Part shown: piece after piece, positions 39,263 through 63,590 of the stretch
How positions within the stretch are numbered: position 1 is the first letter of the stretch
How the letters are laid out: each line of letters starts with the position of its first letter
Assembly (NCBI GenBank): GCA_964035545.1
Contig: OZ037772.1
Location: 9,397,150 to 9,461,149 of the forward strand
Source of the DNA: Bugula neritina
Taxonomy: Eukaryota > Bryozoa > Gymnolaemata > Cheilostomatida > Bugulidae
Reading direction: 5' to 3'
DNA: 64,000 nucleotides
Translations under genes and position numbers: made by a program
Notes under the pieces: model-generated
Databases searched by the model: none
What the model saw: only the letters and a program-made list of their open reading frames with translations
What the model was told of the DNA's origin: nothing

Positions 39263-41715
39263 TTAGTGAGGTTTATTACTTGTGTGTCCTCTCTTAAGAT
39301 GGTTAGCAAAATATTTCTTCTTTGTTGTTCTGTAGTCACATGTATTGCAAACATGTACATTTTCATCAGAGTGAGTTGCTATATGTCCTTCCATAAAGCC
39401 TCCGTTTGGTGTCTCATATCTACACAGAGGACATTTCCATTTTCCTGTTCTATTGTCTGTAGGCCCAAAATAAAAGAGTAAATTGCTTATATAACAGTTG
39501 CAACATCATATCACATTGTTTAAGAACTGCTTATAGTAAATTATATTTAATACACACACACACCCACACGCACACGCACGCGCACGCGTACACACACACG
39601 CGCACACATTCATGGACAAGCAAGAACACTGTAAAAACACCCAACACTAAAAAATAGTAGGGTCTATCATCGGAAATAGTGTTGTAACTACAAAATTACT
39701 TATACTCATTATTAATTTTATATAACTTTTATCACAACTAAATCTAGTCAGTCAACAATAAATTAGCAACTAACCAATAGTTGGGGTCAATGCAGAGACA
39801 TTGCTGGCTCTAGCCAGCGAGAATGATGGAACGGAAAAAATCTCATCTGTCTGTTGATTGGATGTTGGATTTTGCTGAATAGAAGATGGAGTCTGTGAAT
39901 GAGTTGGTTGCGTGAAGAGTCTAGGTAAAATAGAATGACTCTGATTTACTGCAGAAATATCTTCACTGCTATAGAACAGAAAACTATCTGTTTGTCTGTC
40001 TGTCTGAAAGTTTGGTAGACAAATATTTTGGTCATAAGTTGGTAGATTAAATGTCTGTAGACTTGGAGTTGGTTGTACGAAAAGTTTAGGCAAAGTAGAG
40101 TGGCTCTGAAGAACTGCAGAAGTATATTTACTCTCAGAAAACTGGACATTCTCTGCTTCTGCATTTGCCTGTAAATTTGGCAGTAAGATGTTTACGTCTT
40201 GAGTTGGTAAACTGTTTGTCAGTAAACTTGGTAAATTATAGTTTTGGTCTATGCTTGATAGATTTGATTGAGATGGTACCATGAAAATCTCGTATAAATC
40301 AAAGTCGCTTAAATTTACTAAAACAACATTGTTTCTCTCAGCATCTTGAAGGTTTTGATTTAAAGTGTCTGTCTGCAAGTTTAATGTTTCCGTATTTGGG
40401 CTAAAGACTGGCACAGTCTCAAGTGTTTGCTCTACAAAGGTGTCAGACAAAGTGAGATCACCTCCTTGTGCTGCAGGATTGCTACCAATGTCCTCACATT
40501 GAATATCTTCAGTTGTCGCACTGGTTTCTGGATCTGATGACTGAAGATTCCTTTCCCAAGTTGATGAATGAAACTCAGGTAAAGTAAATTGACTCTCATA
40601 CACCACTGCAGCACTTTCTCTATCAAGAACATGTATATCTTCTACTTCTTTGCTAAATGGTTCAGATGACTGGATTTCTTGGTAACCAGATGGCAGCTGG
40701 AAAGTGTTCTGTGTTATCACCATGTCTGCTGGAGAATCTGTTCTTTCTGGACTGTTTAAATATTGCTCTTTTAAAACTCTCACAGCTTCTGCAGTTTCTA
40801 CAAAAGAAATAAACATCCCTTTGCAACTGATACTTTTTTATAGAATGTGCATGCAGTTTTTGCACTTGTCACAAAGTTTTTAACAAACATTTCAATTTTA
40901 ATTTGTTTCTATCAATACAGATTTCAGCAACATATTATACACTGTCTTTTTATTGTCTGAAAAAATAATATTTAGTACTCTTAAACTTGCTCAAACCTTA
41001 AGTTGACATATAAATTTAGAAACATTTGAAACTTTACTTAGCAACTTTGCTACATATTAAAAAGGTAATACACTCAACAAAATTTTTTAACCCATCAAGT
41101 GTCCTAAACTACAAAGTGAACGGATAAAGGTGCACACAGATATAAGCAGTATTGATATTTTGGTAACAAATGGTCGACTGAACTACCCTAGGGAGCGTAT
41201 AAGACAACTCTGACCAGCACTGGCTAGGTTTGGGGGTGGTGGAGTGCCCTCCAATGTCAAATGTTCTTTTTTGTCCACTAAACACATTTCCCTCTAGCAA
41301 TTATACACCAGTGCATATTAATTTATTTCAAATTACTAACCAGCATCAGCTGTCACACTTTTTGAGCTGGTGTTCAGGTAAACATTTCCTTGATCTTCAT
41401 TAGAATCATGTAATGCCTGCCATAAATCTTCTATATCTAAAATGTAGATTTTGTAACTTTTAAAAACATTTTTAGCTTCTCTTATCAAAAAGTGCAGATT
41501 GTCCTGCAGATAAAATGAACTACATAAACTAATCAACTCAAATTTCTAAAGCTGGTAAATATTATGAAAAAAACAATTTATTTCCTATGCAATATAGACA
41601 TGTGCCATACTTGATCTGCATTTCAACCTTTAATACAGTAAAATATATGCACCAAATAGATTTAGGAATTTACTGAAATACATTCTCTATACGTACTTGA
41701 CATATCATCTGCCAT
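39263..41715 (-). CDS. Two-finger C2H2 protein, tandem copy A
   Basis: Exons 41697-41715, 41341-41436, 39775-40797 and 39263-39456 join in frame to 443 residues (1332 bases). Start MADDMS; all introns are phase 1. The 1023-base third exon encodes a Ser/Gln/Asn/Thr-rich, probably disordered region with repeated QSHSTLPKLF-like phrases. It begins ETAEAVRV and has lost the PLDLS motif present in E and F. The last exon holds two C2H2 fingers (CPLC...H-x3-H; CNTCDYR...H-x4-H) and ends NKPH. Family knowledge: such fingers usually bind DNA or RNA in the nucleus. Two fingers alone specify little sequence, so dimerisation or partners are likely. Confidence 0.85.
39552..39608. repeat. CA/CG dinucleotide microsatellite in copy A intron
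   Basis: Alternating purine-pyrimidine tract with CACACG and CGCGCACGCG segments, a Z-DNA-prone composition. A related CA/GA tract lies in the same intron of copy B (43466-43556). Confidence 0.85.
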
Positions 41716-43184
41716 CTTAAGTAAAACTCAACACTAAAAGTAAAGTGAAACTGTATAGACTTGCTGTAACACAATTTTATATGCACACACATGGGACTAG
41801 ATAAGATTAGGTAGCTTTTTCTTCAACTTCCTAAGTTACAGTATTTTGAAAAACACTGCACTTCTTTCAAAAAGCAAAAAAGCTTTGCTGTAAAAACCTT
41901 TGCATAGCCCGCTATTTTCATATTATTTTATTTCATTATACGTGTGTTAATCAAGGGGTTTTTATAACTATATACCTAAAGCTTTCATATTAAATTCTAG
42001 TAGATTCAATTAAAGATAATTTGTTTAATTGCATGCCAAATACATAAACTTTCAATTTATTCACTTGAATTCCTAATAAGATATAAGCTGGCAAATTTAT
42101 AAATTACATTTATGTTCCATCTTGATTTCTTATGCAGAAATTTTTTCTAAAACTAATGTAAGAAAAAAAAATTTTGACAGAAAGATAATTAGCACCCAAA
42201 AATCAAATAGTGTGCTCATCATGTGAATTCTTACATCAATAAGTATGAGGTATATGATAGTTTGTAAATCCATGAAAAGATTGAGCAAATTCTATGTCAT
42301 TCAAAACTTGACTGACTGCAATTTGCATTCGTTCAGCTGGCAGAGTAAAGTGACTTTGGTTTATGGCAAAAATATTCTGCTTGTATACAATTTAAAGGTT
42401 TTTGGTTTCAGTATTTGTTAGCTGACTCATTGATTGATTGGATTAGGGAGCAGCCGTGGTCCAAGGGTTAAATCGCTTGCTTTGTGAACACAAAGTCATG
42501 AGTTCGAACTTTGACAAAGGTTGTTGGTGATGTTAGGAAAAGCATCCATAATTGTTCCTGTGCCTCATCTGAACAAGTTCCTAGCCTGTTCTAACAAAAA
42601 CCCTTTCTATTAAGGGTTTCTCACAGGTATAGCAATTATAAACTTGCATGAGTTTTTTGTTTATTGATTGACTGCCATGGATTGGTTACAGGATTGTAAG
42701 TGTTGATTCAGTTACTGTGTCATTGGATATAATCTCTAGATGGCTAATTTATTCACAATTTATCTTATGTAGAAGTAAAATATTAATTTTTAAATGTCTT
42801 TAACCAGACAAGAAAATTTTCCCATCAGTGAGTTTTACATTGATAGGGGAAAAAAGTCTAAGCGAGTATTTGACCCATTTATTATAATTGGTTATATTTA
42901 ACTAAAACATATGAAACTGTAGAAATTTATTTAAAATTGGAAGTAAAAACATTCATTCTTTAAAAAAATTTATCACAGTTAAAATTGCCCGTTTGTGATG
43001 AGCTTGAGTGAATGTTTTTCTATAGACTACAAACTTTTAAAATTACCTCAAAATCAAAATTATTAGCTGCGCATTCAACTAGCTGATGCATTTCAATATG
43101 CCTACTCAGATCAGACTGACATAAACACGCAGCATGCAGTAGTCATGGAATAAATTTATTTTGATTTTGTGCACAAAATCAAAA
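41716..43184 (-). other. Spacer A/B with relic exon and SINE
   Basis: Near 42318-42405 the plus strand (GCAGAGTAAAGTGACTTTGG, then a motif like GCAAAAATATTCTG) resembles a part of the large low-complexity exon of the array genes. It is a decayed exon relic on the minus strand. Similar relics occur at about 48490-48580, 55035-55115 and 59585-59660. 42445-42660 is a family-1 SINE (plus strand) with GTGATGTTAGGAAAAGCAT and a GGGTTTCTCACAGG tail. Confidence 0.6.
42445..42660 (+). mobile_element. tRNA-derived SINE (family 1)
   Basis: Head GGGAGCAGCCGTGGTCCAAG, B-box-like GAGTTCGAACTTTG, body GGTGATGTTAGG and tail TTTCTCACAGGTATAGCAAT. It is the best-preserved copy with 21185-21405. Confidence 0.85.
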
Positions 43185-44634
43185 TTAATCTATGCCATGA
43201 ATTCTTTGAGCATGTCTAGTAAAACGCTTTCTTGTTTCTGCTCTGTAGTCACATATATTGCAAACATAAATAGTTTTATAGGAGTGAGTTGCTATATGAT
43301 CATTCATGGTTTGTTTCTGATTTATCTCATAACTACAATGAGGGCATTTCCACTTCTCGGTTCTCAAATCTGTAAGCCCAAAGCAAGAGAGATACTGGCA
43401 GTATAGTTTATATATAGAGTGCAAAAGCAGAATTTATTGTTTCAAAGCTGTTTATATTAATTTACATTCACACACATGCACAGACACTCAGACACAAAGT
43501 GAGAGAGCCAGAGAGGCAGAGAGAGAAAGAGGGAAAAAAGAAAGAGAGAGAAACACACTCTTGAATAGACAAACATGCACAGAGTTTAAACACTCAAAAC
43601 TATTGAAAAATTAAGATGTGTAACTATGGAAAATGCTTTACAAGCACAAAATTGGTTATACTAATAGCAAATTGTATCCTACATTGAATGCAACCTATGT
43701 AGTCAAGTAAGAAATAATTGATAATTACTTACAATAATCTAGAGAAGAGTCAGCGTCAATAATAACTTCAGACCTTGAGGTTGATGGAGTGGAGTGAATC
43801 TCATCTATCTGTTGATTGGATGTTAGATTTTGCTGAGTACAAGATGGAGTCTGTGAATAAGTTATTGGTGTAAAAAGTCTAGACGAAGTAGAGTGGCTTT
43901 GATTCACTGCAGAAGTATTTTCACTGTCAAAAAGCTGAACACTTTCTGCTTTTGTGTTTTGTTGTATATTAGATGAATGAACATTTTGGTTATAAGTTGG
44001 TAAGTTGTATGTCTGTAGATATGGTAGGGGATAGCTTTGGTCTATAACTGATGAATTCAATTCATATGGTGGAAATTGAAAGTTCTCATTCAACTCTTGT
44101 GTTTGTGGATTTAGTGGCTGCTCATTTTGGCCACATACTAGTGAGGTTCCAAAGATTTGATTGACAGAGGGTTCAGTCAATCGGCCTCCATGTACCGCAC
44201 AATTGCTAATGATGTCAACACGTTGCATATCTTGATTTCTTGTACTGGTCTGTTGATCTGAGGACAAAATACTCTGTTCATAAATTCGAGAATGAAACTC
44301 GGGTGAAGTGAAGCGCTGGAATTGAGACACAGTGGCATCAATTTCTTCGCCAAGAGATTGATATCTCTCTCTTGCACATCCTTCATTTAAAATGCCTACA
44401 GTAACGTGTAAGAACACTTTTTGGCTCTTTTTTAAAATATAAAATCTACTGGCAATTATACCTCTACATTATAAGTTAAAAAATGTAATCAATTCAATTA
44501 GCGAAACAGGGGGAAAAATAACCTTTACTACTTTATAGCACCAGAACTAAAAATTGGTAAAATATGCATCACATTATTCTAAGAATTTAGTAGAAGAAAG
44601 TCACTCTATACTTACTTGACATTCTATCTGCCAT
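43185..44634 (-). CDS. Two-finger C2H2 protein, tandem copy B (short form)
   Basis: Exons 44616-44634, 43733-44395 and 43185-43369 join in frame to 288 residues (867 bases). Start MADRMS. The separate second exon of the other copies is fused to the large exon: after the first intron the frame reads ILNEGCARERYQSLGEEID, where the others have an N-EGCIRQEQDSNDEL exon. No PLDLS motif. Two C2H2 fingers (CPHCSYE...H-x3-H and CNICDYR...H-x4-H) end the protein, with a short tail GID. All introns are phase 1. Confidence 0.85.
43466..43556. repeat. CA then GA microsatellite in copy B intron
   Basis: A CACACA-rich stretch is followed by an interrupted GAGAGA run, in the intron before the zinc-finger exon, equivalent in place to 39552-39608 of copy A. 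Confidence 0.8.
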
Positions 44635-45475
44635 CTCAAGTACAACTCAACACTAAAAGTACAATGTAACTAAAAAGAAATGCTGTAACACAGCGTTGTC
44701 TGCACTTTGAAAACAATATTGTAAATTGTAATTATATTTTCATGTAAATATTTTACCATCTAGTGAAAATCTGCCAAACAAAGAGAAGCTATTGTAAAAG
44801 CCAGCTTTTATCAAACCATTTCATTCATACACATGCTAAAGCTTTTGTGATGTTTGTAAGTATTGGGCTGGTTCACATTGCTAGAGCTTCAAAACACCAG
44901 TGTAGTTGTGAAAATGATAACTGAAAATAACATTCCATCCATTTTGTTCTTTTTGATGCCTTTTTATGTATACAGAAGAAGTTTTAAAAATTGTATATTA
45001 TCCTAAAACGATTATTGCATTAATAATATATGTCCCCTGACAACTTAGACAACTCCAAAATACAAGCTTCTTTAGGTAATGGGAGCTGAAGATAATCTAA
45101 TAGATAAGTATTGTGTTGACTATGAGCAATCTTTGATGTGTTTAAACATGTTTTCTATAATTAATGTTTTGAAGAAACAAAAGGTTATAGTAGCTATAAG
45201 AATACACTTATAAAATGGAATGCAAAATACAAGTTAAAAACAGTTGATATCACTTTTCTACTATAATGAACATGCAGTGATTGTTTTTTATAGACCAGAA
45301 ACAATCAAAATGGCTTCAAAATAATAAAATCTTACAACACTAAATTCACATGTATAGTCTAATATGATGGCTTGAAATTTAGAAAAGTTACATTTTCTTC
45401 TTTCACTGATGAGCTTTAAGATGTTTCTTTACATGGTATACTTCTGTGAATATTATATTTACCACAGTGGTTACA

Positions 45476-47804
45476 TTAGTTAGGTTGATTTCCACCATGA
45501 CAGTTCATAGTATGTCTTGTCAGGCACCATCCTCTATTTGTTCTGTAGTCACATTTATCACAAACATGGATTTTTCTAGAAGAGTGAGACTTTATATGAC
45601 GATCCATGTAACTTATCTGCCTTACTTCATTGTTACAGTGAGGGCACTTCCATTTCTTATTTGTACTGTCTTCAAAATCAAAATCAGAAAAAGGCTTGCG
45701 GTAATTTATATAGAAGTTGCGAAATTTGCTAAGTTGTTCTATATAGACACATATGAAAAGCTAAAATTGCACAAGCACACACAAAGAAGTAGAATATGCA
45801 CCAAGGAAAACTTTTGAAGTGTAATTTGCCTTTTGATCTAAATAGTTGTTTTTAATTATTATAATAATTATATATATATATGCATTTTTATTGGCACTCT
45901 ACGGTCAGTGCGTATAGGAAGTTGATAACTTACTCTTACTCAAAGTTGAAGCTAAAGCAGAGAAATCAATTGGTAGACGCTGTGAAGTTGATGGAGTGGA
46001 GTGAATCTCATCTGTTTGTTGATTGGATGTTAGATTTTGCTGAGTATAAGATGAAGCCTGTGAATGAGTTACAGGTGTAGAAAATCTAGACAGAGTAGAG
46101 TGTATTTTGAGATTTGCTGTAGCATTATATTCACGGCCATAATATTGAACCTGCTCTGCTTTTGTGTCTTCCTGTAAACTTGGAATTGGGACATTTTGGT
46201 TTTGAGTTGATAAATATCCTGTCTGTAGGTTCGGTAAAGAACATTTGTGGTCTACGATTGGCAAATGCAATTCAGATGGTACCATAAAAATCTCAGGTAA
46301 GTTAGAGTCACTAGAGTTTACTAAAATAGGATTAATTTCCTTAGCAACTTGAAAATTTTTATTTAATGTGTCTGTCTGTAAATTCAATGTTTGATTGTTT
46401 GGGCTAGACACAGGTGCAGTCTCAAGTGTTTGCTCAACTGAAGTTTCAGGTAGCATAAAATTGCCTTCCTGTAGTGCACAACTGCTGATATTGTCAGTTC
46501 TTGTGCTGATCTGTAGATTTAATGACTGAATATTTTGTTCATAAACTGGTGAATGAAACTCGGGTGAAGTGAATTGACTCTCATACACCACAGCAGCACT
46601 TTCTCTATCACGAACATGTATATCTTCTACTTCTGTGCTTAAGGGTTCAGATGACTGAATTTCCTGGTAACCAGGTGGCAGCTGGAAAGTGTTCTGAGAC
46701 ATTAACATGTTTGTTAGAGAATGTGTTCTTTCTGGACTGTTTAAATATTGCTCTTTTGGAACTCTTACTGCTTCTGCAGTCTCTACAAACAAAATAAAGA
46801 CGCCTTCACAAATTATATATTTTGATACAACTCGGTTCAATTTTTGCAATTATAGTACCAAAGTTTCAACTTTACTTTATATCATCAATACAGATGAAAA
46901 CAACATATATGTGGTCTCTTCCGAGTCTCAAATCATTTATTTAAAAGCTCTAAACTTTTAAATTCTAGCATTTATAAACTGTCATGCAAACCTCAAACAA
47001 TGCAAAGCTTTATTCTCAGTGAGAATACAAATTATGAATTTTTAAATTTTGTTTTGAATTATTTAGCAAGCTGATAAATTCAATAAAATCTACCAACAAT
47101 CAGCTGTTCATTTTCAAAGATAAATATTTCAAACTATATTTACTATTCCTTATTGTTTTCATTACAAAGCTTAGATACATCTGGGCCTACTCTTTTAATG
47201 ACCTTTAAGTTATAGTAAAATAAAATAAAACTACACCATGCCAGAATGCAGAAAAAATTCTCTATATAATAATATAGTATTCTAATGTATATAGTTGTCC
47301 ATATAAGTCTATTCAGCACTACTAATTACCAGCATCACTCATTCTACTTCCTGGGTCGGTGCTCAGTTCGATGTTTCTGAGATCTTCATTCGAATGATAT
47401 TTCTTTCTTGGCCAATCTTCATCTGAAATGTAAATTATAGTGTTCAGGGATATTTTTTGGTTTTCTTTATCAAAAATTATGAAAAAAATTGCCCCCAATC
47501 AAAATCAAACCCGAAGCCTCTGGCTTGCAAGCAAGTGTGCTAACAATTGCACCACCGGGACCACTGGGTAAACTTATCACTACAAATTATTAGCTATAGT
47601 GACTTAATTAATAGAACTGAACTAATAATGGTTCCAATTTCCAAGACCTGTTAAATGTTATCACATAAAATAACTTTTGTCATTGTGCACCATGAAAGCT
47701 GAAGTCAAACATTTCCTACAGCAAAATTGTATTTGTTACAAATTACTATAATAAGAATTTACTAAGACAGAGTCACTCTACTTACTTGACTTTTTATCTG
47801 CCAT
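45476..47804 (-). CDS. Two-finger C2H2 protein, tandem copy C
   Basis: Exons 47786-47804, 47330-47422, 45934-46782 and 45476-45669 join in frame to 384 residues (1155 bases). Start MADKKS. The large exon begins ETAEAVRVPKEQ, as in copy A, and lacks PLDLS. Its 3' splice donor is ambiguous by six bases (two GTAAG in a row), which does not alter frame. Fingers: CPHCNNE...H-x3-H and CDKCDYR...H-x4-H, with tail GGNQPN. A and C look like the closest pair outside E/F. Confidence 0.85.
47490..47575 (-). mobile_element. tRNA-like repeat (possible second SINE family)
   Basis: Minus strand: A-box-like GGTGGTGCAATTGTTAGC, then CTTGCTTGCAAGCCAGAGG and a B-box-like GGGTTTGATTTTGA. It shares its core with 25540-25625. 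It lies in the first intron of copy C. B-box mismatches argue against a functional tRNA. Confidence 0.5.

Positions 47805-48886: not shown

Positions 48887-48888
<2 letters not shown>
47805..48888 (-). other. Spacer upstream of copy C with relic exon
   Basis: Contains an exon relic at about 48490-48580 (GTCTCTGATTTACCGTAGAAG on the plus strand, close to the large-exon phrase GGCTCTGATTTACTGCAGAAG). No intact gene. The (TA)n tract and Penelope-like element follow. Confidence 0.6.

Positions 48889-48973
<85 letters not shown>
48889..48973. repeat. (TA)n microsatellite
   Basis: About 42 TA repeats directly abutting the left end of the Penelope-like element. Reading frames across it are artefacts. 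Confidence 0.95.
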
Positions 48974-48978
<5 letters not shown>

Positions 48979-49283
48979 GAAATAAAATGAGATTTGATTA
49001 ATATAATGGCATTTATTACTAGTAGTTTCGTACACAAGAACGATGTGCACTCGTCAGATAAATTAGCCACTATGATTGCTTACAACTATAAATAATGTAA
49101 TATGTAAATATACACAGAATAAAGCTAGAAGATCAAAAAATAACAAAGAGGTAGCATTGGAATTACTTGGCTATGTTATAGCATTCTTGAGTAGAAATTT
49201 ACTACTATGTCTGCATATGGATAAAAAGTCATAGCGCTTATTGAGGGAAGACAACTGTGGCTTATAAAGAATGAAAAATTTTT
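48972..49283 (-). repeat. Left inverted arm of the Penelope-like element
   Basis: 312 bp that pair with 50740-51051 in inverted orientation with few mismatches by eye. It contains the 3' end of the ORF (stop at 49171) and the minus-strand hammerhead. Confidence 0.93.
49008..49068 (-). ncRNA. Type I hammerhead ribozyme in element 3' end
   Basis: Minus strand: helix I strand GGC-TA-ATTTAT, core CTGACGA, stem II GTGCACA/TGTGTAC (seven pairs, one G-U), core GAAA, helix III C-T closed on A-G by a three-base loop, and a GTA cleavage triplet. The second helix I strand ATAAAT-GCC pairs with the first apart from a two-base bulge. All invariant core residues are present. The very short helix III is typical of Penelope-associated hammerheads. 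Confidence 0.9.
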
Positions 49284-50737
49284 CCCATGAGCATAGCTGA
49301 CAGTTTTTAGTGTTGTTGTTGTATGGTTGAGCTTTTCTGAGAATTTTCCAGGATATGGTAAAATCCAGACCTTTGTCTTTTAAGGTCCAGATGTGTTTGC
49401 TCAACTCAGTTTGCAAGCGCTTGGTTGGGTGTCTGAAAGAAGCAAAGTGGTTGTAGTATCTTGCCTTGAATGCAGTGGAGGAAATTCCTACATATGTTTC
49501 GGCAGTATCTTTTGATGGGACGGATACTTTGGCCTGGTACACAATGTTTGGGATGGTGCATTCTCCTGGGAGCGGGCATGTCTTTACATTTCTACAGTTA
49601 CAGCCTGCCTGTGATATAGGGGTGGTGTTGCATTTAGTAACACTTTTGTTGTGAGCAGTGATGGTCTGCTCCAAATTTGGGCAGCAACTGTAGCTGAGTT
49701 TGAGTGTGTTTTTATTAAATATTTTGTGCAGTGGGTGTTTGGTGTTGAATATATCTTTTATCAGCTTGAGGTATATGAAGCCGATTTTCGTCTTTACATT
49801 GCGGCTATAAGGTGGATTGTACCAGATGACTTGTCTTTGTCTGATGGGTTTGATGCTTGTATTGGTGTTGTCAGTATAGTCTTTGTATTTGAGTTGGTAG
49901 TCATATCCGCTTTTAGCCAAAGCATCTTGATATTGTGGGATGGCATTGTTGAAGATAGTTTCATTGGTAGATATGTCACAAAGTCTGCGGTTTATAGATT
50001 CTAGTATATTTTTCAGGATGCTAGGAGGATGGTTAGAGTCTTTGTGTACATACAGAGGGATGTTGTTGGGCTTGGAGTATGGTGTATGATGTTTCTTGAC
50101 CAGATCTAGGGTGACATCTAAATAGTCAGTTGTCTTAATATTAACATCTATGGTGATCTTTAGACCGTGTGACTGGAATAATATGCAAAGATCTTTTTTC
50201 AGTCTTTCAGCTAGTTGTGGTTTAAGATCTGTTACACCTAGCCCATCGTCACGATATAGTCCAATGTTAGCTTTGAACTTTTTTGAGATTGTACTTAATA
50301 AAAATAATCCTACTAATTCACATGTTTCAGCACCATCATGTGAGCCCATAGTGACGTCAAACAAATTATCTGATTGTCTTTTACCCCAAAATGAGTTGTC
50401 ATGCACCAATATGGATTTTTTTGTGTGCAATATGATATTCCGTTCGTGGTTGCTGACTGTGGTATGCAAGTTGGCAAAGTCGAGAGCATCTGATAGTAGC
50501 TTTGGTGATATAGATGGATAAACTTCCACAATATCGAACACGATAAAAGAGTGCTTGTTTGTGGTGGTCAAATTGTCAAACCAATGTAAAACTGCAGATG
50601 TGCTTTTCCACTGATTTAGGCCAAGTTTGCTGTTTATCGATGTATTAATTCTGTCAAGTAGTTGTTTACTCACCCTACCTATCTCTGGTTTGGTGGGGTT
50701 AATAAGGCGGCAGGTGGGGTTAGTTATGTAGTTAGCC
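49171..50737 (-). CDS. Penelope-like RT plus GIY-YIG endonuclease, 5'-truncated
   Basis: The open frame runs from the inverted-repeat junction to TAA at 49171; it has no proper start because the N-terminus is missing. Early residues NPTCRLINPTKPEIGRV match the conserved entry to the Penelope RT. RT motifs: FIVFDIVEVYPSI (motif A), TMGSHDGAETCELVGLF (B region) and LYRDDGLGV (C). The C-terminal GIY-YIG-type endonuclease carries IVYQAKV, ETYVGISSTAFKARYYNH and CQLCSWEKF, preceded by a Cys pair region (CNCRNVKTCPLPGEC). The role in the family is target-primed reverse transcription with nicking by the endonuclease. The frame is otherwise uninterrupted, so the copy is fairly young. Confidence 0.92.
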
Positions 50738-50739
50738 TT

Positions 50740-51051
50740 AAAAATTTTTCATTCTTTATAAGCCACAGTTGTCTTCCCTCAATAAGCGCTATGACTTTTT
50801 ATCCATATGCAGACATAGTAGTAAATTTCTACTCAAGAATGCTGTAACATAGCCAAGTAATTCCAATGCTACCTCTTTGTTATTTTTTGATCTTCTAGCT
50901 TTATTCTGTGTATATTTAAATATTACATTATTTATAGTTGTAAGCAATCATAGTGGCTAATTTATCTGACGAGTGCACATCGTTCTTGTGTACGAAACTA
51001 CTGGTAATAAATGCCATTATATTAATCAAATCTCATTTTATTTCTTTTAAT
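50740..51051 (+). repeat. Right inverted arm of the Penelope-like element
   Basis: Inverted duplicate of 48972-49283. It has a few base changes, such as TACTGGTA here versus TACTAGTA (minus strand) in the left arm. Confidence 0.93.
50955..51015 (+). ncRNA. Type I hammerhead ribozyme, inverted copy
   Basis: Plus strand: GGC at 50955-50957, CTGACGA 50966-50972, stem II 50973-50979 with 50987-50993, GAAA 50994-50997, helix III 50997-50999 with 51003-51005 (third pair G-T), predicted cleavage after A51006, and ATAAATGCC 51007-51015 closing helix I. Same fold as the left-arm copy, with one helix III pair weakened. Confidence 0.88.
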
Positions 51052-51111
51052 GTTTATGCTCTAGATTTATTTCTATAGAGCACTCTAGTAACGTTTTATA
51101 AACACTCATTT

Positions 51112-51660
<549 letters not shown>

Positions 51661-52303
51661 TTAGACTATAGTTTGCTTTATTTGCATTTCAGATATACCT
51701 AACACCAGTGAATCTGTGAAAATAAAAAAAGCAGAACATGTCATGTAGTTATGGCTTTTGTAGTAGGATAAACTGTTTTATTAATGTTTCAACTTCCAAA
51801 AGACATATAATCTCTAAAACTAATATTGTATGACAAATAATTTGCTAGTGACAACTTAGACGGCTTAAAAACACAAGATCTTTCAACATTTACAGACTAG
51901 AAAAGTCCAACAGTTAAGACTGTTTATAAACATATGACTATGTGCAATATTCTACGTATAAGCTATAAAACATGTTTTCAACCCTTACTTTATACTTTTG
52001 GAGAAATAAAACACTAATAATTGTAATAGTTTACTTGTGAAATTATAATAAAAACATCTTTGATGTAGAAAAACTAAAAACAGTAAAAGACATTGTTCTT
52101 GTATGAACATAAAGCAACTGTTTTTCTGTAAACCAAAAATATTTAAACTAGTTTTAAAATAAAAATTATGGCAAGAATTTAAAACTATAAAACAAGATAT
52201 GCATGACTATATTCTGAATGACAGCTTAAAACTTACTAAGTTCATTTGCTTCTCCTTTTACTGATGGAATTGAAGATTATAATTCTTTACCACGGTAATG
52301 AAA
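51661..52303 (-). other. 3' flank of copy D
   Basis: Non-coding. It shares with the flanks of E and F the block around TAAAAATTATGGCAAGAATT and a stretch near 51680-51760 (GTTTGCTTTATTTGCATTTC) that also follows the relic exons at 55330 and 59870. It is part of the array repeat unit. Confidence 0.6.
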
Positions 52304-54446
52304 TCAATTATAAGGTTCATTTAATCCAGAATGATATCTCCGAACGTGAGTAACCATTTTATCTCTCTGAGCTGATCTGTAGTCACATGTGTCGCAAATA
52401 TGTACATTCTCAAAGGAATGAGATTCTATATGACGATCCATGTAATCACTTCGGGCTACCTCATATCTACAGTGAGGGCATTTCCATTTCCCGGTTACAG
52501 GGTCTTCAAATTCAAAGCAAGAATAGAAAATGCAGTAATTTATATAGAAGTTGCAAAAGTTGCTACATTGTTGCAATGTTGTTTATGCATGAGAAGTTAT
52601 GTTCACCTAATATGCAAACAAAAATCAAAGGATAACCTTTTGAGTATTTAAGTTGCCTTTTGATCCTATAGTATAATTATTATTAATATTATATATCGAT
52701 GCTCAGTTACAATCTATGGTCAATATATAATAAGTTGATAACTTACTCTTATTTATAGTTGAAGGTAAAGCAGAGACATTGGTTGGTGGTCGCTGTAAAG
52801 TTGATGAGGTGGAGAGAATCTTATCTGTCTGTTGGTTGAATGGTAAGTTCTGAGGAATTTGTGAATGAATTGGCTGTGTGAAGAGTCCAGACAGATTAGA
52901 GTGGCTCTGATTTACTGCAGAGGTATATTGACTCCCATAATACTGGGAATTATGTGCTTGTCTGTCTGTCTGAAAGTTTGGTGGATGAGCATTCTGGGTA
53001 TAAGTTGGTAGATTGAATATCTGTTGATTTGGTGTAAGATAGCTCTGGTTAATGTTTAGTAAATTAGATTGAAATGGTACCATAAATATATCAGGTACAA
53101 ACAAATGAGTAAAGTTTCTTGAAGAAGCATTGCCCCTTACAACAGATTGAAGGTTTTCATACGATGAAAGTGTCTGTTGATCAAATGCTTGATTATTCTG
53201 GCTAAAGTTGGGTGAACTTCTAAAAGTCTGTTCAACAGAGGTTGCAGACGGCGTAGTAACATGGCTTCTACGTCTTGGAGAGTTGCCAACAAGTTGCATA
53301 TTTCTGCCTCTTCTGCTCCTTTGTGAAATTTGTGACTGAATATGTTCTTCATAGGTCGGTAAGTGTGAACCAGGTAAAGGAAAATAATATTCAGACCATG
53401 TAGTAGTATTGTCTCTATCAGAACCTTGAATATTTACTCTTTCTGTGTTTCTTGGTTGAGATGCTGAGTACATCTCCCGGTAACCAGATGCCATCGACAG
53501 AATTAATGGTTGATCGGTCCCTCCTAGACCCTCTCCGTTCTGTTCTATATTTAGCAATAATTCAGTATCTCCTGTAAAGTAAATAAACCTGTCCTCAAAA
53601 TTTATAACTTTTCTCATAATACAACTTGCTTAATATTTACACAATCATCACAAAAATTGCTTCAAATTCACTTTAGTATTGCCAATACAAAGGCAAACAG
53701 CATAATGTAGCTTTCTCATTTTATTGGTAGTTGAAATTGGGTGAATTGCAATTTTTTAACTTTTTTCAAGCTTGAGAAGGTGTTGTTATAAAACACTCTC
53801 TGTATGTTAAGCTGAAGTTAAAATTCAAAATCATTTTTTGAATTTGATTTAGAAATATTTGAAAAGCTGATATGCATGCATTCACCAAACTGACTAACCA
53901 ATCCACTTTCTACTCTGCAGAGATAATTCATTTAAACTGAGCTGCAATTAGGATTTATTTTCATTACAATTGGTTACAATAAAAGTTATTCATAAGCTGT
54001 ACTCAAGTAGCATTGGTGTAGATTAGGTAAAACTCTCCCAAAGCAAACTGCTGAAAAGATCCTGTAAGATTGAGTATTGAAGCAAAAAGATGTAGACGCA
54101 AATGACAGTTTATTTAAAAGTACTAACCCGCATCACTCATAAGACTTGCTAGATCAGCATTCTGTTCAGAATCTCCGAGTTCATCATTAGAATCCTGCTC
54201 TTGTCTTATGCATCCTTCATCTGAAAATATAACTATGATGTCTTAGAATACAGTGTAGATTGTTAGAAATTAACTAATTAACTCAAATTTCAAACTCTAG
54301 TAAACTTTATGATCGACATAATCAACTTTCACCAATGTGCCATAGAAGGGCAGAAGTTCAACACTTACTATTACATTACCACAGTATTTCAAAATAATAT
54401 TATTAATAAAATACAGTCTCTACTTACTTGACATACCATCTGCCAT
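52304..54446 (-). CDS. Two-finger C2H2 protein, tandem copy D (PLILS variant)
   Basis: Exons 54428-54446, 54128-54220, 52747-53571 and 52304-52503 join in frame to 378 residues (1137 bases). Start MADGMS. The large exon starts with the GDTELLLNIEQN head that in E and F is a separate exon, then runs straight into the low-complexity region, so two introns and two PLDLS-type units have been lost by fusion. The CtBP-type motif is changed to PLILS (53495-53509), which should weaken or abolish CtBP binding. Fingers: CPHCRYE...H-x3-H and CDTCDYR...H-x4-H, with tail SGLNEPYN. All introns are phase 1. Confidence 0.86.
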
Positions 54447-54548
54447 CTTAAGTACAACTCAACGCTAAAAGTAAAGTAAAACTGCAAAAACTCGCTGCAA
54501 CACAATTTTATCTGCACTTTGAATACAATATTGTAGACTATCCGTAGC

Positions 54549-54561
54549 CCCTTTATATATA
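54549..54561 (-). promoter_or_regulatory. Conserved TATA-like box of copy D
   Basis: Minus strand TATATATAAAGGG about 105 bases before the start codon. The same box is at the same distance in copies E and F. The intervening leader (with TTTAGTGTTGAGTTGTACTTAAG just before ATG) is conserved in the array. Confidence 0.6.
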
Positions 54562-55914
54562 GTTTAAGATATAACTAATATATCTGTCAAACAAAGAAAG
54601 CTATTGCAGAAGCATTATATAGCTAGCTTTCATTAAACCATTTTACTCATACATACATGTGCTATGAAACTGGCAGTTTTTCATCTCAATTGTTAAAGCT
54701 TTTGTGATACTTTACTAAAATCAAATGATAGTGTGTGTTATCCTCTCATGCATATGCTATGAAACTATAAGAAGTGTTTTAATTATCTTATCAAAAGTTT
54801 CATAACATTAAACTTAAATAAAATTATCAGTTTATTACTTTGCAAAGACCGTGAAATTTTATCTTATTTATAGAACAAGTCTCTATAAAAAATAATCCTG
54901 CCTATTAAATTAAGTTCAGGCTCAGCTTAGTGTTGTTTACAATAATTCCCAAAGTCAAATTGAGTAGAAACCTCTCATCCAGAAAATAGATCTAATTTAC
55001 ATTTTCTGTTCTTGAAAACTTTACAATCGGTATTTTCTCCAGGCAGAGAATAACGTCTCTGTTTTAAATGCAGAAATATTCTGTCTGTAGACAAATTGAA
55101 GGTTTTTAGTTTCAGTGTTTTTTTAGTAGATTTGTTGATTCAGCTGTGTTACTGGAACTTCTGCTCTGAACATTATACTCTATAGATTTGTTGATTATTG
55201 TGACAGTCCATGATGTATGAAAGTTAACTATTTGCTAAATTATTTTAACATGGTAAAGGAAATTTTCCATCAGGGGTTCTCACATACAGTGTGACTATGA
55301 TTATACTCAAGTGAGCATTAGACTAGTTTGTTTCATTTGCATGTCAGATTCCATCAGTGCATTTGTGAAAATTAAAAAAACAGAACATGCCATTTAGTTA
55401 TTGTTTTTGTACGAGTAGTAGGATAAATTGTTTTATTAATATTGCAACTTCAAAAAAGCATAGAATCTCTAAAATTAATATTGTATGATAGATAATTTGC
55501 TAATGACAACTATTAGATGGCCTAAAAACACAAACTTCTTCAACATGTACAGGCTAGAAAACATCCAACAGTTGGGAATGTTTATAAAAATGAATGTGAC
55601 TGTAAGCAATAGTTTACATGCGTTAGATCTTTTTTTTCTAACATCACTTTATTTTTGAAAAAATAATAAAATTATTTACTGCAAAAATTTACTTCTAAAA
55701 TGGAAATAAAAAAACGCCTGATTTAGAAAGGCTGAAAACATTTGAAGTCAAATTTCATTTATGAACATGGTACAGCTGTTTTTCTAGAGACCAGAAACAT
55801 GTGAACTATCTTCAGAATAAAAATTATGGCAAAAATGTAAACTATAACACAAGATATGGACAATTAATTTCTGGTATATGATAACCTAATTAGATTTACT
55901 AAGTTCAGTTGCTT
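54562..55914 (-). other. Spacer D/E with relic exon
   Basis: Relic of the large exon at about 55035-55115 (minus strand), followed by the shared CTATAGATTTGTTGATT and GTTTGTTTCATTTGCATGTC blocks. No intact gene. 54600-54880 is almost identical to 63720-64000, upstream of copy F. Confidence 0.65.
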
Positions 55915-55920
55915 TTTATT
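55915..55920 (-). terminator. Polyadenylation signal of copy E
   Basis: AATAAA on the minus strand about 70 bases after the stop codon. The same signal lies at 60453-60458 after copy F. Confidence 0.55.
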
Positions 55921-55989
55921 TTACTGATGCATTTGAGAATGATTATTCAGATGGTAGTTATGTGAATGTTTCTTTCCACATTAATGACA

Positions 55990-58900
55990 TTAGGAAGGTT
56001 TATTTCCAGCATCATGAGTTTTCATATGTCTCTTAAAGCTCTGATTGCTTTGGGTTCTGTAGTCACACACGCTGCAAACATGTACATTTTCTTGATCGTG
56101 AGTTTCTATATGGCAAACTATGTTCTTATCGATAACTGTCTTAAATCTACAGTAGGGGCATTCATATTTGTCGATTCCAGTATCTTTAAAATAAAAACAA
56201 GAATATTATTTGCAATAATTAAATTACATTACGTTCTTGTAAAGCAGTTTATGAGAAGTTATATTTACATATGTGTACACGAAAAGAAACAGATTGGATC
56301 AGGAAAAGCTCATCCAGTTAAATTTGACTTTTACTCTATATATAATTTAAATTAAGTAATAATAGAGTAAAATAAAATACTAAATAAATATTAGGATAGC
56401 TATTATAGGTATCCTAATATTTAATACTATTATATTTATGTGTAATTACAATATAATTATGATAAGTAGATAATAAGTTGATAACTTACTATAATAAGTT
56501 GAAGGTAAAGCAGAGACATCGGATGGTAGATGCTGTGAGGTTGATGGAGTAGAGTGAGTCTCATTGGTCTGTTGATTGAATGGTGAGTTTTGTAGAATCT
56601 GTGAATGAATTGGCTGTGTGAAGAGTTCAGGCAGATTAGAGTGGCTCTGATTTACTGCAGATGTAGATTGACTCCCATAATACAGGAAATTTTGTGCTTG
56701 TCTATCTGTCTGAAAGTTTGGTGGATGAGCATTCTGGGTATAAGTTGGTAGATTGAATGTCTGTAGACTTTGAAAGTAATAGTTCTGGAGCATGTTCAGT
56801 AAATTCAATTGAAATGGTACCATAAATATATCAGGTGAAAACAAATGAGTCAAGTTTCTTGAAGAAGCATTGTCCCTTACAACAGATTGAAGGTTTTCAT
56901 TTGATGAAAGTGTCTGTTGATCTAATACTTGATTAATCTGGCTAAAGTTGGGTGAACTTCTAACATCCTGTTCCACAGAGGTTGCAGAAGGCGTAGTAAA
57001 TTGGCTTCTATGTCTTGGAGAGTTGCCAACAAGTTGCATATTTCCGGCTCTTCTGCTCGTTTGTGGAGTTCGTGACTGAATATGTTCCTCATAGGTCGGT
57101 AAGTGTGAACCATGTAAGAGAAAATGATATTCAGACCATGTAGAAGTATTTTCTCTATCAGAACCTTGCATATTTACTCTTTCTGTGTTTCTCGGTTGAG
57201 ATGACGAAGAAATCTCCTGGGAACCAGATGGTAGCTGGGATCTGTTTGTTGCTATTGACAGATCTAAAGGAAGTTCAGTGTTTTCTACACTCTCCACATT
57301 TTTTCGTCCTGGATTTAGCGCTATAATGTCTTTACTTTCTAAAAAGAAGAGAACAAAAAATGTCGTTCAAGCTTATAAATATACAAACATCAAAACATTT
57401 GTCCCAATCTTCAAATATTAAGATTTTTGCAGACGTCAAAAGATGGTGTGGAAAACCCAGCTCTTCTAATTTTTAGGTTAAAGGTCAAATTCAAGACGTT
57501 TTTGACTTTCCTTGAACTATTTGAAAATCTAAGACATTCCCAAAAAAACTTACTTATAACCCGTCAACAGTCTACTTTGTAAAGATCATTAACTTAAATC
57601 TCTGCACCAATAGTTTACTTTTATTATAAATTTTAGAAAAAAGTACTTTACAAGCTGTACTCAAGTAGTAATAAAATGTGGTAATAAAAGTTTAGTGCTT
57701 TCTACATTCTTCTCATTCTGTTGTTCTATATATAATTACCATCACTATGAGAACCTTGGATGTTTACTCTTTCTGTGTGCTTTGGTTTAGATGCTGAGGA
57801 CATCTCCTGGTAACAGGATGCTATTGATAGATCTAATGGTTGTTTGGCAATTTCTAGATTATCTCTGTTTTCTAGTTGTGGATTCAGTACTTCTGCTGCA
57901 AACGTTTCTATAAAAACCATAAACGCTTCTTTAAGTTTTAAAATTGCTTTACTAAAATGCGTATGCACTGTTAGTATTATTACCATCAATATCAGAACCT
58001 TGGATGTTTACTCTTTCTGTGTTTCTTGGTTGAGATGCTGAGTACATCTCCCGGTAACCAGATGCCATCGATAGATCTAATGGTTGATCGGTCCCTACTA
58101 TAAAGCTCTCCTCATTCTGTTCTATATTTAGCAATGGTTCAGTGTTTCCTGTAAAGTAAATAAATCTGTCCTTGAAACTTATAGTACTACTCACATAAGA
58201 TTTTCACAATCATCACAAAAATTGCTTCAACTTCACTGTGGTGTTGCCAATACAGGAGCAAACAGCATAATGCAGCTTTCTCAGTTTATAGGTAGTTAAA
58301 ATTATATGTATTGCAATTTTCTAACTTTGTTCAAGCATGTAAAGGTGTTGTTATAAAACTAGCTGTATTTTAAGCTGAAGTTAAAATTCAATATCATTTG
58401 GAATTTGATTTGGAAATATTTGAAAAGCTGATATACATGCATTCACTAAACTGACTAACCAATCCACTTTCTACTCTGCAGAGATTATTAAGTTAAACTG
58501 AGCCGCAATTAGAATTTATTTTCATTCCAAGGTTTTAATAAAAGTTATTCATAAACTTTACTCAAGTTACATTCATGTAGATTGGGTAAAATTCTCCCAA
58601 AGCAAACTGCTGAAAAGATCCTGTAAGAATGAGTGTTCAAGCAAAAAACTGTAGATGCAAATGACAGTGTATTTAAAGTACTAACCGGCATCACTTCCAA
58701 GACTTGCTGAATCAGCATTCCGTTCAGAATCGCTGAGTTCATCATTAGAATCCTGCTCTTGCCTTATGCATCCTTCATCTGAAAATATAACTCTGATGTC
58801 TTAGAATACAGTGTAGATTGTTAGAAATAAACTAATTAACTCAAATTACAAATTCTAGTAAAATTTATGACATAATCAACTTTCACCAATGTGCCATAGA

Positions 58901-58994
58901 AAGGCAGAAGTTCAACACTTACTATTATATTATCACACTGTTTTAAGATATTCATAAAATTCAGTCTCTACTTACTTGACATATCATCTGCCAT
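55990..58994 (-). CDS. Two-finger C2H2 protein with three PLDLS motifs, copy E
   Basis: Exons 58976-58994, 58686-58778, 57984-58148, 57740-57907, 56490-57338 and 55990-56183 join in frame to 495 residues (1488 bases). Start MADDMS; all five introns are phase 1. Exons 3, 4 and the start of exon 5 are repeats of one unit: acidic lead, PLDLS, a phrase like SGYREMYSASQP, and NTERVNIQGSD. PLDLS codons lie at 58069-58083, 57825-57839 and 57256-57270. PxDLS is the established docking motif for the co-repressor CtBP. The 849-base exon adds a Ser/Gln/Asn-rich region. Fingers: CPYCRFK...H-x3-H and CSVCDYR...H-x3-H, tail DAGNKPS. I infer a nuclear, CtBP-recruiting repressor. Confidence 0.88.
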
Positions 58995-59095
58995 TTTAAG
59001 TACAACTCAACACTAAAAGTAAAGTAAAACTTCAAAGACTTGCTGTAACACAATTTTATTTGCACTTTGAATACAATATTGTAGATTCTCCTTAG

Positions 59096-59108
59096 CCCTT
59101 TATATATA
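59096..59108 (-). promoter_or_regulatory. Conserved TATA-like box of copy E
   Basis: Minus strand TATATATAAAGGG about 105 bases before the start codon, aligned with 54549-54561 and 63692-63704. Confidence 0.6.
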
Positions 59109-60452
59109 GTTCAGGATATAACTAATATCTGTCAAATGAAGAAAGCTATTGTAGAAGCATTATATAGCTAGCTTTCATTAAATCATTTTACTTGTACATG
59201 TGCTATGAAACTGGCAGTTTTTTCACCTCAATTGTTAAAGCTTTTGTGATACTTAACTAAAGTCAAATGATAGTGTGTGTTATCTTCTCATGCATATATG
59301 CTATGAAACTATGAGAAGTGATTTAATTAACTTATCAAATTTTTCATAACATTAAACTTAAATCAAATTATCAGTTTATTACTTTGCAAAGATCGTGAAA
59401 ATTTATCTTATTTAGAACAAGTCTCTATAAAAAATGATCCTGCCTATTAAATTAGGTTAAGTCTCATCTTGGTGTTGTTTACAGTAATTATTCCCAAAGA
59501 CAAGTTGAGTAGAAAACTCTCATCCAGAAAATAGAATTAATTTACATTTTCTGTTCTTGAAAACTTTACAATCTGTATTTTCTCCAGGCAGAGAATAATC
59601 TCTCTGTTTCAAATGCAGAAATATTCTGTCTGTAGACAAATTGAAGGTTTTTAGTTTCAGTGTTTTTTAGCTAATTTGTTGATTCAGCTGTGTTACTGGA
59701 ACTTCTGCTCTGAACATTATACTCTATAGTTTTGTTGATTTTTTTGACAGTCTATGTGTGAAAGTTAACTATTTGCTAAATTATTTTAACTTGGTAAAGG
59801 AAATTTTCCATCAGGGGTTCTCACATGCATTGTGAATATGATTATACTCAAGTGAGCATTAGACTAGTTTGTTTCATTTGCATGTCAGATACCTATCAGT
59901 GCATCTGTGATAATAAAAAAACAGAATATGCCATTTAGTTATTGTTTTTGTATGAGTAGTAGGATAAATTGTTTTATTAATATTGCAAGTTCTTCAAAAA
60001 AGCATAGATTCTCTAGAATTAATATTGTATGATGGATAATTTGCTAATGACAACTATTAGACGGCCTAAAAACACAAACTTCTTCAACATTTAGAGACTA
60101 GAAAACATCAAACAGTTAAGAATGTTTATAAAAATGAATGTGACTGTAAGCAATAGTTTACGTTAGATCTTTTTTTTCTAACATCACTTTATTTTTGAAA
60201 AAATAATAAAATTATTAACTGCAAAAATTTACTTCTAAAATGGAAATAAAAATGCCTGATTTAGAAAGGCTGAAAACATTTGAAGTCGCATTTCATTTAT
60301 GAACATGGTACAGCTGTTTTTCTAGAGACCAGAAACATGTGAACTATCTTCAGAATAAAAATTATGGCAAGAATGTAAACTATAAAACAAGATATGGACA
60401 ATTAATTTCTGGTATATGATAACCTAATTAGATTTATTAAGTTCAGCTGCTT
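59109..60452 (-). other. Spacer E/F with relic exon
   Basis: Relic of the large exon at about 59585-59660 (minus strand) in the same position as in the D/E spacer, then the 3' flank of copy F. The whole spacer aligns with 54562-55914 with scattered differences. Confidence 0.65.
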
Positions 60453-60458
60453 TTTATT
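60453..60458 (-). terminator. Polyadenylation signal of copy F
   Basis: AATAAA on the minus strand about 70 bases after the copy F stop. Confidence 0.55.
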
Positions 60459-60527
60459 TTACTGATGCATTTGAGAATGATTATTCAGATGGTAGTTATG
60501 TGAATGTTTCTTTCCACATTAATGACA

Positions 60528-63500
60528 TTAGGAAGGTTTATTTCCAGCATCATGAGTTTTCATATGTCTCTTAAAGCTACGATTGCTTTGGGTTCTGTAG
60601 TCACACACGCTGCAAACATGTACATTTTCTTGATCGTGAGTTTCTATATGGCAAACTATGTTCTTATCGATAACTGTCTTAAATCTACAGTAGGGGCATT
60701 CGTATTTGTCGATTCCAGTATCTTTAAAATAAAAACAAGAATATTATTTGCAATAAGTTACATTACGTTCTTGTAAAGCAGTTTATGAGAAGTTATATTT
60801 ACATATGTGTACACGAAAAGAAACAGATTGGATCAGGAAAAGCTCATCCAGTTAAATTTGACTTTTACTCTATATATAATTTAAATTAAGTAATAATAGA
60901 GTAAAATAAAATACTAAATAAATATTAAGATAGCTATTATAGGTATCCTAATATTTAATACTATTATATTTATGTGTAATTACAATATAATTATGATAAG
61001 TAGATAATAAGTTGATAACTTACTATAATAAGTTGAAGGTAAAGTAGAGACATCGGATGGTAGATGCTGTGAGGTTGATGGAGTAGAGTGAGTCTCATTG
61101 GTCTGTTGATTGAATGGTGAGTTTTGTAGAATCTGTGGATGAATTGGCTGTGTGAAGAGTTCGGGCAGATTAGAGTGGCTCTGATTTACTGCAGATGTAG
61201 ATTGACTTCCATAATACAGGAAATTATGTGCTTGTCTGTCTGTCTGAAAGTTTGGTAGATGAGCATTATGGGTATAAGTTGGTAGATTGAGTGTCTGTTG
61301 ACTTTGAAAGGAATAGTTCTGGAGCATGTTTAGTAAATTCAATTGAAATGGTACCATAAATATATCAGGTGAAAACAAATGAGTAAAGTTTCTTGAAGAA
61401 GCATTGTCCCTTATAGCAGATTGAAGGTTTTCATTTGATGAAAGTGTCTGTTGATCTAATACTTGATTAATCTGGCTCAAGTTGGGTGAACCTCTAACAC
61501 TCTGTTCTACAGAGGCTGCAGAGGACGTAGTAAAATGGCTTCTATGTCTTGGAGAGTTGCCAACAAGTTGCATATTTCCGGCTCTTTGTGACTCATTGTG
61601 TTCTTCATATGTTGGTAAGTGGGAACCATGTAAGAGAAAATAATATTCAGACCATGTAGTGGTATTGTCTCTATGAGAGCCTTGAATATTTACTCTTTCT
61701 GTGTTTCTTGGTTGAGATGCTGATGACGAAGGATAAATCTCCTGGGAACCAGATGGTCGCTGGGATCTGTTTGTTGTTGTTGACAGATCTAAAGGAAGTT
61801 CGGTGTTTTCTACACTCTCCTCATTCTGTTGTTCCTGATTATGTACTATAATGTCTTCATTCTCTAACAAAAAAACAAAAAATGTCGTTCAAGCTTATAG
61901 ATATACCAACACCAAAATATTAGTCTTAATCTTCAAATATTGAGAGTTTTGCAGGCGTCAAATGATGGTGTGCAAAATCCAGCTCTTCAAATTAGGTTAA
62001 AGTTCAAATTTAGAATATTTTGGACTTTTCCCGAACTGTTTGAAAAACTAAGATATTCCCCAAAAAGGTTCTAACCAGCAGACAGTCTACTTTGTACAGA
62101 TCATTATCTTGAACCTCTGCACCAATAGTTTACTTTTATTATAAATTTTAGAAAAAAGTACTTTACAAGCTGTACTCAAGTAGTATTAAAATGTGGTAAT
62201 GAAAGTTTGGTGCTTTCTACACTCTTCTCATTCTGTTGTTCTATACACTTGGTACTACTGCTGCAGTTTCAATAAAAGGCATAAATATTGCTTTAAATTT
62301 TATAATTGCTATTTTATAATTTGTATGCACTGTTATTTAGTATTATTACCATCACTATCAGAACCTTGAGTGTTTACTCTTTCTGTGTGTTTTGGTTTAG
62401 AGTACATCTCCTGATAACCAGATGCCATCGACAGATCTAATGGTTGTTCGGCATTTTCTAGATCCTCCTTGTTTTGTTGTTGTGGATTCAGTACTACTGC
62501 TGCAGTTTCTATAAAAATTATAGACGTTTCTTTAAATTTTAAAATTGCTATACTAAAATGTGTATGCACTGTTAGTATTATTACCATCACAATCAGAACC
62601 TTGGATGTTTACTCTTTCTGTGTTTCTTGGTTGAGATGCTGAGTACATCTCCCGGTAACCAGATGTCATCGACAGATCTAATGGTTGATCGGTCTCTACT
62701 ATAAAGCTCTCCTCATTCTGTTCTATATTTAGCCATGGTTCAGTGTTTCCTGTAAAGTAAATAAATCTGTCCTTGAAACTTATAATACTACTCCCATAAT
62801 ATTTTCACAATCATCACAAAAATTGCTTCAACTTCACTGTGGTGTTGCCAATACAGGAGCAAACAGCATAATGCAGCTTTCTCAGTTTATAGGTAGTTAA
62901 AATTAAATGTATTGCAATTTTTTACTTTCGTTCAGGCATGAAAAGGTGTTGTTATAAAACACTCTCTGTATTTTAAGCTGAAGTTAAAATTCAATATCAT
63001 TTGGAATTTGATTTGGAAATATTTGAAAAGCCGATATACATGCATTCACTAAACTGACTAACCAATCCACTTTCTACTCGGCAAAAATAATTAATTTAAA
63101 CTGAGCCGCAATTTTTTCATTACAAGGTTACAATAAAAATTATTCAGAAACTGTACTCAAGTTGCATTCATTTAGAATGGGTGAGACTTTCCCAAAGCAA
63201 ACTGTTGAAAAGATCCTGTAAGATTGAGCATTGAAGCAAAAAGATGTAGATGCAAATGACAGTGTATTTAAAAGTACTAACCCGCATCACTTCTAAGACT
63301 TGCTATATCAGCAGTCTGTTCAGAGTCTCTGAGTTCATCATTAGAATCCTGCTCTTGTCTTATGCATCCTTCATCTGAAAATATAACTATGATGTCTTAG
63401 AATACAGTGTAGATTGTTGGAAATAAACTAATGAACTCAAATTACAAACTCTAGTAAACTTTATGACATAAGCAGCCTTCACCAATGTGCCATACAAGGG

Positions 63501-63590
63501 CAGAAGTTCAACACTTACTACTACATTATCACACTGTTTTAAAGTATTAATAAAATTCAGTCTCTACTTACTTGACATATCATCTGCCAT
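60528..63590 (-). CDS. Two-finger C2H2 protein with three PLDLS motifs, copy F
   Basis: Exons 63572-63590, 63282-63374, 62585-62749, 62350-62508, 61024-61863 and 60528-60721 join in frame to 489 residues (1470 bases). Start MADDMS; all introns are phase 1. Three PLDLS motifs (62670-62684, 62429-62443, 61781-61795), one per duplicated unit. A further non-coding remnant of the unit start (GGTACTACTGCTGCAGTTTC at about 62250-62270) lies just downstream of exon 4 and lacks a usable acceptor. The zinc-finger exon differs from copy E by one codon, Arg for Gln in the second finger. The closest relative is E, and the 3' halves are almost identical. Confidence 0.88.

Follow-up and report, generated by a model that had tools for sequence, protein, structure and literature searches.

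Introduction

Most known tandem expansions of zinc-finger genes come from vertebrates, insects, and molluscs. DNA binding by two fingers is usually weak, and in Ikaros and Hunchback the C-terminal finger pair is a dimerisation module. The cluster described here, from the bryozoan Bugula neritina, is like the KRAB-ZNF and ZAD-ZNF clusters in its tandem layout and variable finger contacts. Unlike those clusters, its copies have two to four fingers rather than long arrays, and no KRAB or ZAD domain was listed for the seven proteins scanned.

A second comparison comes from proteins that recruit the corepressor CtBP. The pentapeptide PLDLS is an E1A-type CtBP-binding motif (PMC2749851, PMC9907507), and ZEB has three PLDLS-like motifs that contribute to CtBP binding (PMC2749851). 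Two genes of the Bugula array likewise have three such motifs together with C2H2 fingers. In contrast to ZEB and ZNF217, the motifs of the array sit on tandemly duplicated exons, and CtBP binding is predicted. A tandem C2H2 expansion is of a kind already known, and the particulars are unusual: a finger lost in common, PLDLS exons that have multiplied, and mosaic copies. In this bryozoan case, finger number shrinks through a common stop codon while a short corepressor motif multiplies on exons. The copies form a natural series (zero to three motifs; two, three, or 2+2 fingers) for the trade-off between effector dose and finger count. We found no description of this gene family in the literature, of which our coverage was partial.

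Results and discussion

Extent of the array

The stretch of DNA analysed, called the window here, is 64,000 nucleotides long; 60 kb past it was also examined, and positions there continue the window numbering. The sequence-only reading of the window had counted six copies of the gene, which is where the window cuts the array off. Seventeen first exons and 19 finger exons lie over ≈68 kb of contig C8, to which the window belongs (C8:9436412-9504918), with the first exons all on one strand and spaced 2.8-7.4 kb apart. When exon 1 with its splice donor was searched for as a 26-base pattern, with up to one mismatch allowed, 15 matches turned up in the 216 Mb genome, always on the minus strand of C8 (9438839-9500285), and the backward control of the pattern matched nowhere. 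Reading revealed two further first exons: one at 99295 encodes MADINMS and is three bases longer, and one at 107769 encodes MADEIS. A protein search with the middle exon gave 32 matches, all on the minus strand of C8:9436928-9503365, and neither search matched elsewhere in the 216 Mb. Copies are named g1 to g6 from 63590 down to 41715, and c7 (67976) to c17 (107769) upstream. Open reading frames past 113 kb are EGF- and thrombospondin-1-like by reading, so the array seems to end there. As co-oriented duplicates at one locus, the genes belong with the tandem, lineage-restricted zinc-finger clusters.

Gene models in the window

The six window genes, claimed to be co-oriented between 39263 and 63590, were rebuilt from the sequence on the minus strand with exactly these outer bases. 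All six start with a 19-nt exon encoding MADxxS, as described before (starts at 63590, 58994, 54446, 47804, 44634, and 41715), and end with an exon for two fingers. The exon joins are predictions from sequence alone. They use AG acceptors and GT donors, and the spliced frames stay open in all six genes; all internal exon lengths are multiples of 3, so that every predicted intron is in phase 1, in agreement with the earlier reading.

Gene g1 (60528..63590, minus; exons 63590-63572, 63374-63282, 62749-62585, 62508-62350, 61863-61024, and 60721-60528) encodes 489 amino acids with three PLDLS motifs and two fingers. Its neighbour g2 (55990..58994, minus; exons 58994-58976, 58778-58686, 58148-57984, 57907-57740, 57338-56490, and 56183-55990) has the same features in 495 amino acids. 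The other four genes have fewer exons: g3 (52304..54446, minus; 54446-54428, 54220-54128, 53571-52747, and 52503-52304; 378 amino acids), with PLILS at the motif position; g4 (45476..47804, minus; 47804-47786, 47422-47330, 46782-45934, and 45669-45476; 384 amino acids), without PLDLS; g5 (43185..44634, minus; 44634-44616, 44395-43733, and 43369-43185; 288 amino acids), without a separate second exon or PLDLS; and g6 (39263..41715, minus; 41715-41697, 41436-41341, 40797-39775, and 39456-39263; 443 amino acids), with PADMV at the motif position. The N-terminus is acidic, as had been noted: the first 38 residues of g2 include 11 D/E and 2 K/R.

Pfam scans of the six window proteins put zf-H2C2_5 over the cut-off in g1 and g2 and left all zinc-finger families below it in g3-g6; no domain other than zinc-finger models passed the cut-off in the window proteins. 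Di19 (PF05605), a two-finger look-alike, passed in g1 and g2, was below the cut-off or unlisted in the other four, and was rejected as the family's identity. No KRAB, ZAD, SCAN, or BTB domain was listed for any of the six, and the scan of c15 was likewise free of KRAB and ZAD, which places these seven proteins outside the KRAB-ZNF and ZAD-ZNF families.

Loss of the third finger

Finger 1 fits C-x2-C-x12-H-x3-5-H/C in all 19 finger exons, which places the family among the C2H2 zinc-finger genes. A second finger can be read in every one; in several upstream copies its last histidine is replaced by cysteine, and in c16 its loop is 13 residues long. Copies c8 and c12 encode three intact fingers in one open exon. 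In 12 of the 19 finger exons, a TAA lies directly 5' of TGT, the codon of the first cysteine of finger 3; g6 has a TAA at the same distance with no cysteine codon behind it, and g3 and g5 stop at another place and have weak finger-3 traces. The sequence 3' of the stop is still finger-3-like, and many copies have acquired extra stops, frameshifts, or shortened loops there. Within the window, g1, g2, and g4 have a trace that is clear by eye; that of g3 and g5 is weak, and that of g6 is doubtful. Decayed third fingers follow the stops of g1 (60459..60527, minus) and g2 (55921..55989, minus), a frameshifted remnant follows that of g4 (approximately 45400..45475, minus), and a weak remnant that of g3 (approximately 52240..52303, minus).

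The idea of two fingers as the family's architecture did not hold; most plausibly, the family started with three fingers and most copies lost the third secondarily. The claim that none of the six genes is broken stands for their reading frames and fails for the third finger. The simplest account is that the stop arose in an ancestor or spread by gene conversion. Alternatively, finger 3 may have been regained in c8 and c12; the tree of the fingers has no root and little support for its deep branches, so it does not fix the order of events. In c9 and c13, one finger exon runs without a stop into linker sequence (open frames of 150 residues) and, judged by its AG and GT signals, may be spliced in phase 1 to a second finger exon, which would give 2+2 fingers. 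Readthrough of the stop into finger 3 was considered and is thought unlikely, because the remnants in several copies contain further stops or frameshifts.

Middle exons and PLDLS motifs

The middle exons had been described as a disordered, low-complexity linker. The main exon of g2 encodes 282 residues (15% Ser, 11% Gln, 10% Asn), and AlphaFold2, given 18 aligned sequences, predicted no fold for the g2 middle (mean pLDDT 36.3); this value fits disorder, and so shallow an alignment also depresses confidence. The prediction thus agrees with a disordered linker, and the middles of all six window genes are rich in Ser, Gln, and Asn. What the low-complexity description missed is that some copies contain a known effector motif, PLDLS.

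A single module that includes PLDLS occurs three times in both g1 and g2, as exon 3, as exon 4, and at the start of exon 5. The motifs of g1 lie at 62670..62684 (exon 3), 62429..62443 (exon 4), and 61781..61795 (exon 5), and those of g2 at 58069..58083, 57825..57839, and 57256..57270 in the same exons, all on the minus strand. By eye, another decayed start of a PLDLS module lies at 62200-62265 (minus), between exons 4 and 5 of g1. Copies c7 and c11 have PLDLS once in the main exon and once in exon 3. The exact motif, two or three times in each, is therefore found in four copies (g1, g2, c7, and c11), which alone among the copies searched qualify as PxDLS proteins. A search of the complete proteins g3-g6 (four of the six window proteins) did not find it, and of the 16 main exons searched, those of all copies but c14, 12 are without it; the upstream copies among the 12 are c8, c9, c10, c12, c13, c15, c16, and c17. 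Copies without PLDLS either lack the module or have PTDMS, PTDTS, PADMV, or PLILS at the aligned position.

Ten of the 11 aligned module sequences of the Bugula neritina genome contain PLDLS. Outside the array, the metagenome ORF P0001 has PLDLS, three others have SLDLS, and at its two motif positions the EB796 protein P0002 has QSDLL and SLDLW. Residues next to the motif in the module are likewise conserved, so PLDLS is not singled out by this conservation. Shuffling g2 gave at least one P.DLS in 283 of 20,000 shuffles, and one five-residue motif can arise by chance. Because four copies have the exact motif, we read the family as repressors, some of them CtBP-recruiting; because it is missing or altered in the others, CtBP recruitment is proposed for a subset.

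Selection and the possibility of decay

Loss of finger 3 could instead mean that the family is decaying, with selection relaxed in most copies, these drifting to pseudogenes, and a few (c8, c12, and the PLDLS copies) still working. Besides the common stop in most finger exons, this reading draws on the failure to find exon 2 in c9, c10, c13, c17, and g5, on the shortened middle exon of c14, and on two pairs of main exons, c11-c7 (pN/pS 1.02) and c12-c8 (0.83), that do not differ from neutral. These pairs belong to a set of six sharing no copy, which was picked after the dN/dS of 22 pairs was known (0.31 for c13-c9 to 1.02 for c11-c7) and leaves out g3, g5, c16, and c17. Summed over the six pairs, main-exon pN/pS is 0.59 (Fisher p=2.8e-9), which argues against general decay. 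Three of the six are individually below 0.05, and c15-c10 is borderline (p=0.055). Starting the main exons of c10, c13, and c15 a few codons inside the intron rather than at the AG left the sum at 0.59 and changed c15-c10 to p=0.047; the indel and contact tests described below used these intronic starts. A ratio near 1, which the sequence-only reading had named as evidence against itself, thus appears in one pair of six (c11-c7) and not overall.

Other evidence also argues against decay. Main exons are open in all 16 copies translated, and their indels are multiples of 3 in 8 of 8 cases (six comparisons, with some indels counted twice); in the mostly intronic 5' parts, 12 of 38 indels are multiples of 3 and 26 are not. 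An exact TATATAAA lies 111-121 bases 5' of the ATG in 12 of the 17 copies and is missing, by exact search, in g5, g6, c8, c12, and c17. We consider it rather unlikely, on balance, that the family is decaying. Ratios for the finger pairs (0.19 to 1.82) rest on few synonymous changes, and nothing was drawn from them.

Finger contacts and the possibility of dimerisation

At positions -1, 2, 3, and 6 of the fingers, which we take to be the DNA-contact positions, entropy is higher than at the other non-ligand positions (exact permutation p=0.027 for finger 1 in 19 of 19 exons and 0.017 for finger 2 in 17 of 19, without c11 and c16, where finger 2 is misplaced or shifted); conserved core positions common to any C2H2 finger add to this contrast. 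Variability that peaks at predicted DNA contacts is at odds with a C-terminal pair used for protein contact, by which the array proteins would be one another's partners or competitors instead of DNA binders. In the PDB, the sequences that best match the g6 finger pair are chains of CTCF, ZNF524, and ZBTB7A, and a 57-residue ZNF217 chain also matches; these matches likewise speak against such a role. Dimerisation would suit two fingers at the extreme C-terminus, linkers between them that are not TGEKP, and a possible resemblance to Ikaros and Hunchback; we regard it as quite unlikely.

Among the matches listed, other C2H2 clusters of the same genome lie at C5:14.56-14.72 Mb, C8:8.44-8.58 and 10.73-10.78 Mb, and C3:1.41-1.43 Mb. 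Unlike the array, three C3 stretches that were read have 5, 6, and 13 fingers with GEKP-type linkers.

Recombination between copies

By reading, c11 is a mosaic in which a PLDLS-type middle is followed by an end and fingers that belong to the upstream group, and c17 joins an upstream-group start, a PLDLS-type middle, and an upstream-group end. Genes g1 and g2 are 0.97-0.99 identical over ≈900 aligned bases that take in the last part of the middle exon as well as the finger exon, compared with 0.83-0.96 before this stretch and 0.95-0.96 after it. Gene conversion would give such a profile.

Relatives

Protein searches gave five and three hits, the five among the best 7996 candidates; of these hits, three are annotated proteins of the EB796 draft of B. 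neritina and five are JGI ORFs without an assigned source. With the three-finger exon as query, no candidate was returned. EB796_015311, EB796_008475, and EB796_008477 share the middle exon and are 66-68% identical to the best array copies listed, and P0001, at ≈71%, has the highest identity among the relatives' matches listed. Two of the three annotated proteins are apparently on one contig of 20,539 bases, and EB796_008475 (P0008) has by eye the mosaic joint of c17. Unlike the array copies, the annotated EB796 proteins lack the finger exon. In the tree, P0002 to P0005 group together as one clade close to g3, as if they had been amplified separately. The draft genome of B. neritina was made from Virginia colonies typed to the S genotype (PMC7576161), and EB796 is presumably this draft. 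Cryptic species, missing annotation, and fast turnover are each possible reasons for the divergence of the two B. neritina assemblies. We conclude that the array is a real and largely intact-looking tandem C2H2 family. Outside Bugula neritina, protein searches have so far found it only among metagenome ORFs without assignment, which agrees with the lineage restriction proposed earlier. The proposal of an independent expansion with a novel architecture holds in that the genes are tandem, coding, and, in the window, without a listed KRAB, ZAD, SCAN, or BTB domain; it needs revision in that the finger number is probably secondary and the middle of some copies contains PLDLS.

A model for the array

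We put at about 0.5 the probability that the array genes are expressed and encode DNA-binding repressors of which some recruit CtBP. According to this model, the 17 genes would descend by repeated duplication from a single ancestor, whose protein would have had three C2H2 fingers at its C-terminus, joined by a long disordered linker to a short acidic N-terminus. A stop just 5' of finger 3, spread by duplication or gene conversion, would have left most copies two-fingered. The fingers would bind short DNA sites and the proteins repress, and copies that have PLDLS exons would recruit CtBP by means of their two or three motifs, in the manner of ZEB. Recombination between copies, which may account for the mosaic middles, the triplicated PLDLS exons, and the 2+2 finger units, would maintain diversity. 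A more specific version, which we offer tentatively and think unlikely, is a fast-turning, recombining repertoire of repressors in which exon modules (PLDLS exons, middles, and finger pairs) are shuffled between copies. This turnover would give matches of at most ≈68% to the relatives in the other assembly, and effector dose (zero to three CtBP motifs) and finger number (two, three, or 2+2) would be assorted along the locus.

A genome-defence array like the KRAB-ZNF and ZAD clusters, silencing transposons through diversifying fingers, would fit the tandem expansion, the contact-residue diversity, and the retroelements nearby within the window, which may lie there by chance, but is very unlikely given that no KRAB or ZAD was listed for the proteins scanned and that two to four fingers would read short sites with poor selectivity.

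Other features of the window

A retroelement at 12653-17489 (minus) stands out by its GC content (53-57%, against ≈32% around it) and has a long frame with reverse transcriptase, RNase H, and integrase domains. A 929-aa open frame with DUF1759 at 1034-3820 (minus) is presumably a BEL/Pao-type retroelement. Inside the array, between g4 and g3, a 525-aa open frame at 49174-50748 (minus) had no Pfam match at 0.001; it resembles a Penelope-type element. Finally, the open frames at 5707-8493 and 18922-22295 (minus) look alike by eye and may be duplicates of one gene, and one frame at 18922-22295 has a B-box zinc finger.
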